From contig NZ_JACHGW010000007.1 of assembly GCF_014202505.1 (NCBI RefSeq), positions 124,001 through 188,000 of the forward strand: a stretch of DNA of 64,000 nt, written 5' to 3'. Shown here piece by piece: positions 1 through 6,026 of this stretch. The notes under the pieces are model-generated. The model was given only the letters and a program-made list of their open reading frames with translations, did no database searches and was not told the DNA's origin. Both the position numbers and the translations under genes were made by a program. The DNA is from Armatimonas rosea. Its GTDB lineage: Bacteria; Armatimonadota; Armatimonadia; Armatimonadales; Armatimonadaceae. Each line of letters starts with the position of its first letter. Position 1 is the first letter of the stretch.

Positions 1-108
1 TGCGCTGTAGTACCCCCAAGCGAGGCACACCACGAGCGCCACCAGACCCACCCCCGTCGCCAGGAGCTGCTTGCGTGTCAGAGGGGCGCTAGCGCCGGAA
101 CGGGACAT
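1..108 (-). CDS. Paralogue 1 of the membrane-anchored array (5' end only, continues off the window)
   Basis: Only the N-terminal 36 codons are visible. The ATG is at 108 and the translation begins MSRSGASAPLTRKQ, then a hydrophobic stretch ending in WGYY. This matches the layout of the six complete paralogues that follow: a short polar head, one membrane segment, then an aromatic-rich boundary. It overlaps the end of the preceding gene (stop 89-91) by 20 bp, so the two are probably translationally coupled. The function is unknown and most of the gene is missing. It is called a gene because of the family resemblance and conserved position. Confidence 0.7.
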   Translation of the reverse strand, partial: MSRSGASAPLTRKQLLATGVGLVALVVCLAWGYYSA

Positions 109-748
109 TCCCGGCTTTCCACGTCCGAATCACCTCCGCGAGCATCTGGCGGACGGCGAGGGTCTCCAGGGTCTTGTCCCCGGGCTTGAGGTGCTCGGTG
201 AGGTCGAAGTCGGGCTCCAGCGGAGCGGCCCCGCCGTTGAGGGAGAGTGTCCGCTGCTTCGCGCCATCGTCGGGGGTGAGCTTGAGCTCAAAGCGCACCA
301 TCGCCTTGAGGCGGTAGACCTTGGCCTTGTCGTCCCAGTCCCATCGAACCGAGCGCGGGGGAACACTCCAGCTCCCCGCCACCTTCACCGGGTAGGGCTT
401 GCCCTTGGTCGCCACCCCCGCCGACTCCAGCGTCGCGACCAGATCGTCGGTGACCTTGATCGTGGAGTCGAGCGGCGGGGCCATCACGGCGGGACCACGT
501 GCACTCACCGGCAGCCCGGGCACGGGAGTGGGCGGCGGCGCGGTCGGTTTCTCCGGCGCCGTTGGGAGAGTGTCCGGGCCGGTGACCTTGAACTCCGTGA
601 TCGCGGTCTCGTAGAGGGGCTCCTTGCTGAGGTCGGCTTCTGGGAAGGCAGGAGCGCTAAAGAAGCGCCATGCGGCGATTCCGCCTCCCCCGAGCACGAC
701 GAGGAGAATAATAAGTGCTTGCGCGGTTGTCAGTTTCTTGTTCTTCAT
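89..748 (-). CDS. Paralogue 2 of the tandem membrane-anchored family, unknown function
   Basis: 219 residues. The start is MKNKKLTTAQ, followed by one hydrophobic helix at about residues 9-27, RFFSAP at the membrane exit, a Pro-rich linker (about 65-85), then an alpha/beta-looking domain with a WDWDD motif and a C-terminal TWK. A single N-terminal helix with a positive head suggests an inner-membrane anchor with the bulk outside the cytoplasm. Together with paralogue 7 it forms a subgroup sharing an aromatic W-x-W motif in the second half. It lies in a same-strand array 30 bp after paralogue 3. I recognise no named family. Confidence 0.8.
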   Translation of the reverse strand: MKNKKLTTAQALIILLVVLGGGGIAAWRFFSAPAFPEADLSKEPLYETAITEFKVTGPDTLPTAPEKPTAPPPTPVPGLPVSARGPAVMAPPLDSTIKVTDDLVATLESAGVATKGKPYPVKVAGSWSVPPRSVRWDWDDKAKVYRLKAMVRFELKLTPDDGAKQRTLSLNGGAAPLEPDFDLTEHLKPGDKTLETLAVRQMLAEVIRTWKAGNVPFRR

Positions 749-778
749 GATTGTGGTCAGGGTACCTGAAAACGATGC

Positions 779-1468
779 CTAACGTGGCGTCTTTGGCGCG
801 GGATTGTCTCGCTTCCACGCCTCGGTCAGCGCCTCCAGTGCCTTCCCCAGAGCCTCGTCTTGTTTTTGCGCGAGTGTCTCGGGCGTGGCGATCCCGAGCT
901 CTCCGGAGGCAACCTCAAGGGTGACATGGGTGCTATCGTCGGAGTTTCGGGACAGATAGACCGTGCGCTGCGCCTCAACCTTGTACCCAAACGTGCCCCA
1001 GCTTGGCCGGCCCCCGATAGCCGTTCCCGTTCCCTTGAGCCAGATAAAGACCTCGATGGGGTTCTCGTCGGGCTTGGACAGGTGCAGGGGCTCATCGGCG
1101 GTAAGGGAAACACCTGCCTGCTTGAGGTAGGTGAGAGCATCGGCGTGTTGTTTCGAGGCATGGTCTCGCTTCTTCTGTTCCTCGGGAGTTACCATTCTGT
1201 CACCAACCCCGCCAACCATCTCTCCCGCTCGTTGCGGGGACGGCGTCGCGAGGAGGTCATTTGGGTTCTTGGCGACAAGCCGTGGCGGTGCGAGTGCGCC
1301 CCGGATGATGTTCAGCGACGCGACGGTGGTGCCTTGTAGTGGGCGTTCGGTAAGATCCGGTGAGCTCGGGACGGGCTCTTTAAAGTAGCGGTAGAGGGTA
1401 AGAGAGGCCAAGGCCAAGAGGACCAGAATGACGGCGATAACTTGCTTTTTGTTGAGTGACTGATTCAT
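779..1468 (-). CDS. Paralogue 3 of the tandem membrane-anchored family, unknown function
   Basis: 229 residues. The head MNQSLNKKQ precedes a membrane helix at about 10-26, then RYFKEP. The second half carries GTGTAIGGRPSWG and GYKVEAQRTVYL. The C-terminus has LAQKQDEALGKALEALTEAW ending in WKRDNP. These blocks recur nearly unchanged in paralogues 4 and 6, giving a shared core of membrane anchor, variable linker, beta-rich module and helical tail. Gaps to neighbours are about 30 bp on each side, so one transcript is likely. No catalytic motif is visible. Confidence 0.8.
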   Translation of the reverse strand: MNQSLNKKQVIAVILVLLALASLTLYRYFKEPVPSSPDLTERPLQGTTVASLNIIRGALAPPRLVAKNPNDLLATPSPQRAGEMVGGVGDRMVTPEEQKKRDHASKQHADALTYLKQAGVSLTADEPLHLSKPDENPIEVFIWLKGTGTAIGGRPSWGTFGYKVEAQRTVYLSRNSDDSTHVTLEVASGELGIATPETLAQKQDEALGKALEALTEAWKRDNPAPKTPR

Positions 1469-1496
1469 AGAGGAGGGAACCTACTTCGTATGGGAG

Positions 1497-2231
1497 CTAG
1501 TGGGGAGAAGCAGGATTATCCTGTTTCCATGCCTGTGCAAAGGCCTCAAGCGCCTTCCCGATTGCCTCTTCCTGGCGCCGTGGGAGAAGCTCTTGGCTGA
1601 CAACCCCGACACTTCCGGGGGAAATTCCTGTCTGGAGCTGGACTGTTGTGGGCGTGGTCGCTCGACGGGAGAGATAGGCAAGACGCTCTAGCTCGACCTG
1701 GTAGCCAAGCTTTCCCCAGGATGGCCTGCCGTCGATAACCGTCCCATTACCCTGGATGAGTAGCGTGAGGTGTACCGGGTTCTCACTCTCCTCAGGCACA
1801 TAGGCGTCCTTGTCCGCGGTGACCGTGATTCCGGCTCGACGCAGGTAGGCAATGGCGTCTGTGAAGAGCTTGTGCTTCCGTTGCGCGGCTCGCTTTTCTC
1901 GTGCCGTTTGCTCCTCCTGGCGCTTGCGTTGCTCGTCGGTCAGTGGGCTGGGAGCCATGCCGCCGCCACCAATCGCACCGCCAGATTGCTCTGGACCAGG
2001 CTCCGGGTGCGTGAGGAGCTCCTCGGGATTTTCGACCTTAAGGTGCGGCGGGGCAAGAGGCCCAAGGACGATCTTGAGCGAGGCGACACTGGCTCCTTGG
2101 AGCTCCCGCGTCGCCTCAGGTGCCGTGTTGTTTCCTGGCGCGGTGAAGTAGCGGTAGCCGACGAGCAACGCGAGGATCAACAAGACGGCGGCTACGAGAG
2201 CGACCTGTCGGGGTTTCAGCGCTTGGTTCAT
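1497..2231 (-). CDS. Paralogue 4 of the tandem membrane-anchored family, unknown function
   Basis: 244 residues. MNQALKPRQ leads into a membrane helix (about 9-26) and RYFTAPG. A Gly/Ser-rich linker at about 80-95 is followed by a charged helix (KRQEEQTAREKRAAQRKHK) that could be coiled coil. GNGTVIDGRPSWGKLGYQVE and the tail LPRRQEEAIGKALEAFAQAW then WKQDNP align with paralogue 3, its closest relative in the window. It is probably part of the same operon, 28 bp upstream of paralogue 3. Confidence 0.8.
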   Translation of the reverse strand: MNQALKPRQVALVAAVLLILALLVGYRYFTAPGNNTAPEATRELQGASVASLKIVLGPLAPPHLKVENPEELLTHPEPGPEQSGGAIGGGGMAPSPLTDEQRKRQEEQTAREKRAAQRKHKLFTDAIAYLRRAGITVTADKDAYVPEESENPVHLTLLIQGNGTVIDGRPSWGKLGYQVELERLAYLSRRATTPTTVQLQTGISPGSVGVVSQELLPRRQEEAIGKALEAFAQAWKQDNPASPH

Positions 2232-2269
2232 CGTACTTGCTCAGACTCCTACGAATCTACGTCCCTTCA

Positions 2270-2947
2270 CTATTGAGGTGTTGTGGGATTGTCTTCTTTC
2301 CACGCCGTGACAAACGCCTCCAACGTTCGTCCCAGGAGCTCTGCTTGTTTCTTTTCGAGGCTGTCGGTCGGTGAGATGGGGGTAGCGCAATCGGAGATAG
2401 GGGCGAGCCGGGGTAAGAGACCGACTCGCAGGACTTGCGTGCGCTGGACATCGACATAGAACTCCCGATCCATTCGGAGGTGAGAGATCAGAACACCGGA
2501 ATGTGGCTTTCGTGTGTCCACCTTGCCATCCCCGCTGATCTGGACGGTGAGGTAGAGCGGGCGATCGTCGGGGGTGAGGGGATGCGCAGGCTCCAGGCTC
2601 AGTGGCACCCCTGCCTGACGTAGGTAGGCAATGGCCTTCTCTTTAAATTGTGCGCTCCGTGCCGAGACAGCGTCGGCGTTGAGAAAAAAGGGGTCGATGA
2701 CTGCTTGGATCGCGTGCTCGGGTGGGATCGGGGCCGGGCTGGGGCGGAGCTCATAGGCGAGACAGGGGAACTCTCCCTGGAGATCGACCTTGATATCCGC
2801 GACTGTGACCTTGTAGAGCGTGCCATGGGTCTGGGAGTCAGGGGAAAAGGCGGGGGCCTGGAAGTAACGGAGGACGAGGAAGGTGACCACCCCCATCAAG
2901 GTAATGAGGGCGATCACAAGCTGTTTTCTACTGAGGGATTGTTTCAT
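2270..2947 (-). CDS. Paralogue 5 of the tandem membrane-anchored family, unknown function
   Basis: 225 residues from the ATG at 2947. The open frame extends 25 codons further upstream, but that part is Arg/Pro-rich and overlaps paralogue 6, while MKQSLSRKQ matches the N-termini of the other members. A membrane helix at about 9-27 is followed by RYFQAPAF. The C-terminus has SLEKKQAELLGRTLEAFVTA, then WKEDNP. The middle is more diverged: the usual RPSWG block reads RKPHSG. It lies 13 bp after the stop of paralogue 6. Confidence 0.8.
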   Translation of the reverse strand: MKQSLSRKQLVIALITLMGVVTFLVLRYFQAPAFSPDSQTHGTLYKVTVADIKVDLQGEFPCLAYELRPSPAPIPPEHAIQAVIDPFFLNADAVSARSAQFKEKAIAYLRQAGVPLSLEPAHPLTPDDRPLYLTVQISGDGKVDTRKPHSGVLISHLRMDREFYVDVQRTQVLRVGLLPRLAPISDCATPISPTDSLEKKQAELLGRTLEAFVTAWKEDNPTTPQ

Positions 2948-2960
2948 AGCGGGCTCTCGT

Positions 2961-3644
2961 CTAGGGTTTTGCCGCGGCGGGGTTGTCTTCCTTCCAGCGG
3001 GTGATGATCGCGGAGATCGCACGGGTCAGGGCCTCGTCTTGCTTCTGCGCGAGGGTCTCGGGAGAGGTCACGCCTACGCTGCCGGTCATGTTTCCCGCGA
3101 CATTGAGATGGACCGGGTTCGTGGCCGTGGTCGAGGTGAAAAGATCGCGCTTGAGCTCGACCTTGTAGCCGAGGACCCCCATGGTGGGCTGGTTCTCCAC
3201 GACGGTTCCCGTGCCTTCCAGGGTGACGGTGACCGAGAGGGGGACATGCCCGACCGCGGCCTTTTGGGCGATGTCGTCCTGCGCGACGGGGATTCCGGCC
3301 CCGCGCAGGCTGTCGATAATCTTCTGGACCTTGGGAGCCACTTCCTTGGCGAAGCGCGCCGCCTCGATCTTGGCCGCCTCGCCCTTGGGAGCGAGCATGC
3401 TCCCCCCGCCGCCCTCACCACCCCCGCCGCGCCGCGGTGCTGCATCGGCGGAGACATGGGCGGGCGCAAGCTCGCCCAGCACCACCGCAATCTCCGTGAC
3501 CGCGATATTGTGGAGCACCTTGTCCCGGGGATCGTCGGCGGTGAACGCGGGCGCGGTGAAGTAGCGGAAGAGCACAAAGCCCCCAACACCCAGAAGGAGA
3601 CCAAGGGTGACAAGGAGCTGCGGGAGAGAGAGCTTTTTATTCAT
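2961..3644 (-). CDS. Paralogue 6 of the tandem membrane-anchored family, unknown function
   Basis: 227 residues. MNKKLSLPQ precedes a membrane helix (about 9-27), then RYFTAPAF. A Gly-rich stretch (RRGGGGEGGGGS, about 72-83) links the anchor to the rest. The typical blocks GTGTVVENQP, GYKVELKRDLF and LAQKQDEALTRAISAIITRW then WKEDNP are present. It is 29 bp downstream of paralogue 7 in the array. Confidence 0.8.
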   Translation of the reverse strand: MNKKLSLPQLLVTLGLLLGVGGFVLFRYFTAPAFTADDPRDKVLHNIAVTEIAVVLGELAPAHVSADAAPRRGGGGEGGGGSMLAPKGEAAKIEAARFAKEVAPKVQKIIDSLRGAGIPVAQDDIAQKAAVGHVPLSVTVTLEGTGTVVENQPTMGVLGYKVELKRDLFTSTTATNPVHLNVAGNMTGSVGVTSPETLAQKQDEALTRAISAIITRWKEDNPAAAKP

Positions 3645-3673
3645 GGCAAGTTCCGTCCCTTATACCATAAAGC

Positions 3674-4432
3674 CTACCGTCCTTTGAGCTTACTACCGAG
3701 CAAGGGCGGCAGGGGAGTGGGAGGGGCGTTGTCCTTTTTCCAGCGTGCGATGATGCCTGAGACGATAAGCCGCTGCATCATGTCATGGACAGTATCGGGG
3801 TGGTCCTGCAGCAGGCGGTACGCATCAAGGGGGGCTCCCTCTACCAAGGAGTCTCGGACGCGGTTCAGGTCCGTGGGGAGCGTAAAGAAACCCAGCACGA
3901 CCGTATCGGTGCGCTCCTGCGTCTTCCAGGGAGCTGTGCGAACCTGCCGGGTAATGGCGACAGCGTACCGGAGCTGAGGCAGGAACTGATAGCGCTTTTC
4001 ACTCGGGTTCCAGTACCAGTGCGAGCTATCCTCAAGACGGTAGAGGCCGCGGAGCTTGATGGGAGCCCGGTTTGTACTCTCCGTTGTCGGGACTCCCGCT
4101 CGTTCTAGCTCTGCCATCAGCGACGGCTTGGGGCCAATGGTCTCTCGTGGAACGTCGTCTGGGGTGAAGCGGATCGCCGCTGCGAGCTTCCTGCCAGGCC
4201 GTGGGGCCGGACTGGGAGTGGGGGGAATATTGGGCGGGGGAGTGGGAGCTGCGTCCAGGCGCAAGCCCGGCTCGACCGTAAGCGCGGTGATCGCAGTATT
4301 TTGGAGAGGCGCAACAGTGAGCTGATCCTGTGGCTCGACCGGGGACATGAGCCAGAGGTACCCTCCCGCACTTGCACCAACGACGGCAACAAGGACGATC
4401 CACCCAAGCCACTTGCGAGAGAGTGTTTTCAT
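3674..4432 (-). CDS. Paralogue 7 of the tandem membrane-anchored family, probably first gene of the array
   Basis: 252 residues. MKTLSRKWLGW starts a membrane helix at about 10-28, then a Pro-rich linker (PTPPPNIPPTPSPAP, about 63-77). A WYWNPSEKRYQF motif parallels WDWDD in paralogue 2. The tail has IIARWKKDNAPP, the family's C-terminal signature. The likely promoter is a TAGCAT hexamer (complement of 4442-4447) 9 nt before the ATG, so the array is probably transcribed from here toward the left edge. The function is unknown. Confidence 0.8.
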   Translation of the reverse strand: MKTLSRKWLGWIVLVAVVGASAGGYLWLMSPVEPQDQLTVAPLQNTAITALTVEPGLRLDAAPTPPPNIPPTPSPAPRPGRKLAAAIRFTPDDVPRETIGPKPSLMAELERAGVPTTESTNRAPIKLRGLYRLEDSSHWYWNPSEKRYQFLPQLRYAVAITRQVRTAPWKTQERTDTVVLGFFTLPTDLNRVRDSLVEGAPLDAYRLLQDHPDTVHDMMQRLIVSGIIARWKKDNAPPTPLPPLLGSKLKGR

Positions 4433-4459
4433 AGGCGCACTATGCTATTCTTGGTTATT

Positions 4460-4996
4460 CTAGCCGAAAATCGCGCGCACGAGAATGACATCGTGGTAGG
4501 TGTGCTCAGCCAGCACAAAGGGGAGCCCGACTCCTGTCTCGGTGAAGCCTTGGCGGGCGTAGAAGCGCCCGGCGCGGAGGTTGCTGGGGTGGTGGCACAG
4601 CCAGAGGGTCGCGACCTCGTGGCGCAGGGCGTGGGCGATCACTGCTTCTAGGAGCTGCTGGGCCGCGCCGGTGCCGTGCCAGGAGGCGCGGAGGTAGAAG
4701 CGGTCGAGGAGGGCGGGCTGGGGAAGCGTGAGCGACGCCGGCGGCGCGGCACCGACCGAGAGGCGGGCGTAGCCGCCTAGCTCACCGGTCTCGCTCTCCA
4801 AGACGAGATAGGACACCGTGGGGCGCTCTAGATCGGCTTGGAGGGCTGTTGTGGTGAAGGTAGCGGCGGCGTAGGCGGCGCGGTCCGCATCGGGGACGAG
4901 CTCGCGCCAGGTGTGGAGAAAGGTCTCGGACGCCAGCGCGGCCAGTGCGCTGGCGTCGTTGCGTGTGGCGAGCCTACAGCTGGGCAAGGACCGCAT
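4460..4996 (-). CDS. GNAT-family N-acetyltransferase
   Basis: 178 residues from the ATG at 4996, which overlaps the leuB stop by 23 bp. An upstream extension of the frame lies inside leuB and is Arg/Pro-rich, so it is rejected. The sequence starts [20 protein letters not shown], a typical first GNAT strand and helix. The acetyl-CoA loop is seen as [20 protein letters not shown], followed by [17 protein letters not shown], the usual motif B region. The substrate cannot be predicted. Proximity to leuB suggests co-transcription rather than a shared pathway. Confidence 0.8.
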
Positions 4997-6026
4997 CGGC
5001 CATCGCGATCGTCCCGACGGTCGCCTCGCCGCTCTGGGCGATATCCGGGGTGCGCAGGCCCGCTCCCAGCACGGCCTCGACCGCGGTCTCGATGCGCTTG
5101 GCCTCGGTCTCACGCCCAAAGCTGTAGCGCAGGAGCATCGCCACGGAGAGAATGGTCGCCAGCGGGTTGGCGATCCCCTTGCCCGCGATATCCGGCGCGG
5201 AGCCGTGGCAGGGCTCGTAGAGGCCGAAGGTGCCAGTCCCCAGGCTCGCCGACGGTAGCATTCCCAGCGAACCCGTCAGCATCGCGGCCTGGTCGGAGAG
5301 GATATCGCCAAAGAGGTTCTCAGTGACAATCACATCGAACTGCTTGGGCCAGCGCACGAGCTGCATGGCCGCGTTGTCTACAAGAAGATGGGAGAGTTGG
5401 ACATCGGGGTACTCCTTTGCCACCTCCTCGACCGTCGCGCGCCACAGGACACTGGTCATCAGGACGTTCTGCTTATCGACCGAGCAAAGCTTCTTGCCGC
5501 GCTTCTGCGCCGCCTGGAAGCCCACGTGGGCGATCCGCACGATCTCGTCCTTGGTGTAGACACAGGTATCCACCGCGCGATTGCCGTCGTTCTCCTTGGG
5601 GAGCCCGAAGTACATCCCGCCGGTCAGCTCCCGCACCACCAGCACATCGAGGCCCCCTTCCAGCAGCTCGGGCTTGAGGCTGGAAGCGGCGGCGAGGGCG
5701 GGGTAGCAGATCGCGGGGCGCAGGTTGGCGTAGAGCCCCAGGTGCTTGCGTAGTGGCAGGAGGGCACCGCGCTCGGGGCGCAGGTTGGGGTCGGGGATGA
5801 CGTCCCACTTGGGGCCGCCCACGGCTCCCAGCAGCACGGCATCGCTCGCCTTGCAGAGCTCCAGGGTCTCCGGGGGCAGCGGATGGCCGGTCGCGTCGTA
5901 GGCCGCGCCTCCGACCAGCGCCTCGGTCAGCTCGATATCGGGGGCGACCACGCGGAGGACACGGACGGCCTCCGCCACAATCTCAGGCCCGATTCCATCA
6001 CCGGGCAGAACAGCAACTTTCGGCAT
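4974..6026 (-). CDS. leuB: 3-isopropylmalate dehydrogenase
   Basis: 350 residues, normal for LeuB. It catalyses the NAD-dependent oxidative decarboxylation of 3-isopropylmalate in leucine synthesis. [16 protein letters not shown] opens the protein; [19 protein letters not shown] carries the substrate-binding arginines; [15 protein letters not shown] holds metal ligands; and [18 protein letters not shown] is the NAD loop. The ATG at 6026 is chosen because the 48 upstream codons read through a GC-palindrome repeat and a TACCAT hexamer lies 9 nt upstream. No other leu genes are in view. Confidence 0.95.

Follow-up and report, generated by a model that had tools for sequence, protein, structure and literature searches.

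What does a bacterium gain from encoding a run of diverged, membrane-anchored paralogues side by side, and do their products form one envelope assembly or act as separate modules? The question is raised by a locus in Armatimonas rosea that lies at one end of the stretch of DNA analysed here, a window of 64,000 nucleotides (G000:C7:124001-188000) from a genome of 6.3 Mb in 19 contigs.

A complete array of seven paralogues beside cimA

A preliminary description of the window counted at least seven tandem paralogues, spaced by 13-38 bp with one 20-bp overlap, and both observations were borne out. The window and its left-neighbour sequence together contain exactly seven consecutive minus-strand ORFs of 219-258 aa, with intergenic distances from gene 1 to gene 7 of 29, 13, 38, 28 and 30 bp and finally -20 bp, where genes 6 and 7 overlap (Table 1). 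The seventh gene exists as described, but only 108 bp of it fall inside the window. Leftward of gene 7 comes cimA, which closes the array at seven genes, and the order across the locus is leuB, GNAT, genes 1 to 7, a leader and cimA. Because gene 1 lies 27 bp past the GNAT stop codon and GNAT overlaps leuB by 23 bp, leuB, GNAT and the array look like one operon in their sequence layout. A promoter proposed earlier near position 4442 finds no support in this arrangement, given the GNAT stop 27 bp upstream of gene 1, and a promoter scan returned a single site in 9 kb, no more than shuffled sequence does. That the array sits among genes of leucine/isoleucine biosynthesis is probably coincidental; the site may do no more than give it steady expression.

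Table 1 Features of the array locus and of related loci. Coordinates are window positions unless a contig or locus is named.
Feature	Location	Strand	Remarks
Gene 1, subfamily A, 252 aa	3674..4432	-	N-terminal membrane helix, Pro-rich linker, predicted β-α-(β hairpin)-β-β-α periplasmic domain
Gene 2, subfamily B, 227 aa	2961..3644	-	
Gene 3, subfamily B, 225 aa	2270..2947	-	Start is ATG 2947, not the upstream GTG
Gene 4, subfamily B, 244 aa	1497..2231	-	
Gene 5, subfamily B, 229 aa	779..1468	-	Structure predicted
Gene 5 model	helix 7-30, strand 48-56, helix 95-117, strands 137-151/154-171/179-194, helix 199-221		Moderate model (residue numbers)
Gene 6, subfamily A, 219 aa	89..748	-	
Gene 7, subfamily A, 258 aa	1..108	-	N-terminal part only; full span L009 7332-8108 = window -668 to 108 = G000:C7:123332-124108, mostly left of the window
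GNAT acetyltransferase	4460..4996	-	
leuB (3-isopropylmalate dehydrogenase)	4974..6026	-	Conserved 5′ flank of the locus; ~93% identical in the congener
cimA leader, window genome	L009 7147-7334 (window about -853 to -666)	-	
cimA leader, congener	L025 9603-9790	+	
GNAT genes in three MAGs	L035 9438-9995; L036 4000-4554; L085 8438-8995		

Two subfamilies with a common anchor

Genes 2-5 form one subfamily, B, and genes 1, 6 and 7 another, A. In the tree, a supported branch (99/98) divides subfamily A from a group made up of the four B genes and two genes from a congener (G001), the MAG 'Armatimonadetes bacterium LacPavin_0818_WC50_MAG_59_12' from Lake Pavin, whose identity rests on a 100% cimA match. 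The single design first attributed to all seven proteins describes genes 2-5 but not genes 1, 6 and 7. Its GTGT block is exact in genes 2 and 5 only and its RPSWG block in genes 4 and 5 only, all of them in subfamily B; subfamily A is without both and has a common WxW...Y block instead, with a C-terminal end of the form W-K/R-x-x-N-x-P. A W-[KR]-x-x-N end is kept in both subfamilies, and conserved residues are otherwise few (G, P, W-K and N).

Beyond residue 38, pairwise shuffle tests gave z values of 4.7-68 within B and 11-41 within A, and of -0.5 to 3.8 for A-B pairs, which is not significant. A and B have the anchor and the first strand in common; identity between them averages 29% within the anchor and 21% past residue 60. 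Similarity is far above chance within the subfamilies, and in the anchor between them, which upholds the description of a tandem paralogous family. The subfamily profiles, unlike A-B pairs compared one by one, show likeness past the first residues: hhalign linked them at 98.7% probability over 161 aligned columns.

An N-terminal membrane anchor in every member

As the preliminary description had it, the proteins are membrane-anchored: all nine (the seven and the congener's two) have one hydrophobic helix near residues 7-33, preceded in every member by a segment with 2-3 positive and no acidic residues. With this short, positive head before the helix, the anchor is predicted under the positive-inside rule to be N-in and the domain to be extracytoplasmic. 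A Pro/Gly-rich linker lies between the anchor and the predicted domain. There is no lipobox in the nine sequences, five of which are without any Cys. We decided against signal-peptide cleavage at A-P-A, since conservation of A-x-A fails in genes 1, 5 and 7 and in the congener's first gene.

The predicted domain may resemble LptE in fold

AlphaFold2 gave models of moderate quality, from disjoint alignments: one of gene 5, built with six B sequences (mean pLDDT 73), the other of gene 1, built with two A sequences (mean pLDDT 59). Both show the same order of elements: the membrane helix, a strand, a disordered linker, a helix, three long strands and a helix, to which the A model adds a hairpin. 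The predicted fold order is thus β-α-β-β-β-α in both subfamilies. Foldseek searches of the PDB ranked LptE first for the B model (E 1.2e-3, probability 0.97) and for the A model (E 6e-4, probability 0.98), with low TM-scores (0.2-0.4) that are partly due to the helix and linker in the query. Lower in the lists were weak matches to CsgG and TraT (B model) and PelC (A model).

LptE (PF04390) is an outer-membrane lipoprotein of the LPS translocon LptDE. Its own element order, β-α-β-β-β-α, is consistent with that of the array proteins, for which it is the top fold match in both subfamilies. In hhalign comparisons with 11 LptE proteins, the B profile scored 13.4, a value equalled or exceeded by 2 of 60 column shuffles and not significant, while the A profile scored 23.9 against a shuffle maximum of 15.8 (E 0.005), which is marginal. 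PF04390 found no match in the window genome, and hmmscan of Pfam returned nothing. Since the sequence profiles are not significant or marginal and the lipobox is missing, membership of the LptE family is not supported. Where LptE is lipid-anchored, the array proteins have a membrane helix without a lipobox Cys; they also differ from it in their long disordered linker and in occurring as seven copies instead of one. We call the array domain, as modelled, an LptE-like fold and not an LptE, so that the resemblance to a described family is one of fold and not of sequence. CsgG, PelC and TraT are outer-membrane lipoproteins that form homo-oligomeric rings, unlike the array proteins, and their lower-ranked, weakly scored fold matches come with no sequence link.

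In G000 and 18 relatives, LpxC is present in 19 of 19 genomes, and LptD (PF04453) and LptE exceed the Pfam cut-off in none. The LPS export barrel of this group would appear, from these profile searches, to be either very diverged or replaced; its LptD may lie beyond the PF04453 model.

An undescribed family restricted to one genus

The statement that no described family could be recognised held up in profile searches: the array proteins matched no family in Pfam, NCBIfam, PHROGs or PADLOC. Chance-level matches to Host_attach (E 0.04), EspB (E 0.009) and ThsC (E 0.007) fell below any existing curated cut-off and were set aside. By sequence, the PDB held no match under E 0.2. Subfamily B found no viral relative in IMG/VR and no relative in a scan of genome contigs, and viral structure models gave no significant fold match.

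Searches with B, A and anchor-only profiles recovered the seven genes and the two in G001, the genus's one other genome searched, and nothing else convincing; among 291 genomes of the phylum, none outside the genus yielded a member. With the anchor-only profile, the nine members scored at E < 1e-20 and everything else no better than 4e-4. At that level, weak matches in G038 and G005 are located in or beside unrelated genes, and an anchor-profile match in G014 (G014:C1:5306257-5306373; L155) was rejected as a family member. The G014 match reads as a short membrane protein of another family of the order, in which a helix is followed by YRYFAP, and it adjoins a gene that reads as prepilin-like; its likeness to the anchor is possibly convergent. 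The array proteins are an undescribed family in all libraries tried, restricted to one genus among the genomes searched. A limited literature search on Armatimonadota tandem membrane paralogues and LPS transport returned nothing on point.

Conserved flanks enclose non-conserved genes

At the same locus, the congener has leuB, two B-type genes, then the leader and cimA: two members where the window genome has seven, no A-type member, and neither gene an obvious orthologue by sequence. Between the two genomes leuB is 92.9% and cimA 91.7% identical, while the best full-length family pair reaches about 33%. Most other syntenic pairs of the same contigs are about 65-95% identical, and most low values in that list are explained by the shadow frames and non-syntenic pairs that it also contains. 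The borders are sharp, with conserved leuB on one side and the conserved cimA leader on the other, and the content between them differs in number and sequence. All nine family ORFs are intact (219-258 aa), and the congener's 554-bp gap holds no remnants of further copies. GC3 in the congener is 0.44-0.55 for the array genes against 0.69-0.74 for the flanks; in the window genome it is 0.67-0.70 for four of the seven array genes (1, 3, 4 and 5) against 0.85-0.87 for the flanks.

The expansion was initially taken to be old. However, because the flanks are 92-93% identical across the two genus genomes and the family at most about 33%, low identity among the paralogues is no proof of an old expansion; judged from these sequence comparisons, their divergence is a matter of rate or turnover and not of age. 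The two genomes are compatible with rapid divergence in place, with birth-and-death accompanied by differential loss, and with replacement through recombination.

GNAT and cimA are linked in this family of Armatimonadota. The array separates the two in the window genome, and GNAT is missing from the congener locus. Three more distant MAGs of Armatimonadota, with cimA 62-63% identical, have GNAT directly before cimA and no array between the two, which makes insertion of the array at this point in the present genus probable.

A conserved leader precedes cimA

Upstream of cimA, the window genome and the congener have in common a conserved noncoding leader of 187 bp (82% identical). Its conservation begins at the gene 7 stop codon in the window genome; in the congener it begins 3 bp past the stop codon of the second array gene. 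The leader contains a short ORF, MNFFHRSGGIAQITPRP(HR/QQ), with two Ile codons, then a GC hairpin and a second hairpin, after which comes a T-rich run. The second hairpin is closed by GGG[C/T]TTAG...CTAA[G/A]CCC, a compensatory pair change. In its sequence, the element resembles a leader that would control citramalate synthase, an enzyme of the isoleucine pathway, by transcription attenuation. No Rfam family matched it, and the leader-peptide pattern occurs in 2 of 61 genomes, those of the window and the congener.

Discussion

Shared anchor, diversified ectodomains, variable copy number and sharp borders together fit best with a set of inner-membrane-tethered periplasmic binding modules, parallel and diversifying, encoded by a genus-restricted cassette with fast turnover, and we tentatively prefer this reading, while holding it somewhat short of probable. 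The anchor would remain uncleaved and hold the proteins in the inner membrane, and the linker would let the LptE-like domain reach across the periplasm. Each domain would bind a partner that itself differs between strains; envelope proteins, lipids, polysaccharides and agents that invade or compete are the candidates. The copies would act as separate binding modules in parallel, not as obligatory subunits of one complex, and would turn over by duplication, divergence and loss.

The preliminary description suggested instead that the seven anchors belong to a hetero-oligomeric surface or envelope assembly. In such an assembly the paralogues would make up a single mixed complex, like a ring or a fibre, held in the inner membrane by its anchors. 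The genes are co-directional and tightly spaced, the anchor is common to both subfamilies, and the ring-formers CsgG, PelC and TraT stand lower in the fold lists, all as such an assembly would have it. Seven specialised subunits should nevertheless retain orthologues in a relative whose leuB is 93% identical, and a congener with two members, no obvious orthologue by sequence and no A-type protein speaks for a subunit set that is not conserved. This weakens the proposal. A mixed envelope assembly seems to us improbable, and a fixed seven-subunit hetero-oligomer is unlikely because the conserved orthologues that it predicts are absent. Relaxed constraint, by contrast, would make the array an old, genus-specific orphan family in quick drift, its ectodomain serving just as a spacer or as an envelope accessory under weak constraint. 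Low identity, low GC3 and the small number of conserved residues suit that account, which we consider quite improbable, since nine intact ORFs and an end motif and secondary-structure order kept in both subfamilies argue for a selected fold and against drift.

Recognition could also take a more specific form, an orphan immunity or exclusion array in which each protein gives protection from a single variant, either of a phage or of a periplasm-acting toxin made by a competitor. Tandem non-identical copies, seven against two at the same locus in close relatives, sharp borders, rapid divergence and lowered GC3 all agree with this, and the weak fold matches include TraT, which is a surface-exclusion lipoprotein. 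For type VII secretion in Firmicutes, immunity paralogues that differ from one another are described as occurring in strings (EsaG/TsaI; PMC9484751); like the array, they are tandem, non-identical and variable in number at one locus. The array, however, consists of different, membrane-anchored proteins without nearby toxin or secretion genes, so that the likeness is one of genomic behaviour only. The neighbours are just leuB, GNAT and cimA, with no toxin, secretion or mobile gene among them; neither PADLOC nor PHROGs gave a match, and no viral relative was found. An immunity function is, on this account, doubtful, if still worth considering.

For the preferred reading of parallel binding modules, turnover and differential loss of an older, larger array both fit the two-genome comparison and cannot be separated by it. 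A bolder version, which we regard as rather unlikely, would make this a new hypervariable periplasmic recognition locus, with LptE-like domains on inner-membrane tethers in a swappable leuB/cimA cassette serving self/non-self or phage/competitor discrimination.

What is new here is a known type of envelope domain joined to an unusual anchor and array behaviour; its function we infer. Low identity among paralogues should not be taken as a sign of old age. Hypervariable tandem arrays of envelope proteins often signal contact with phages, competitors or hosts, and our limited literature search found none described in this phylum. Because conserved flanks enclose non-conserved content, the locus can easily be followed across strains, which makes its turnover and its role directly testable.
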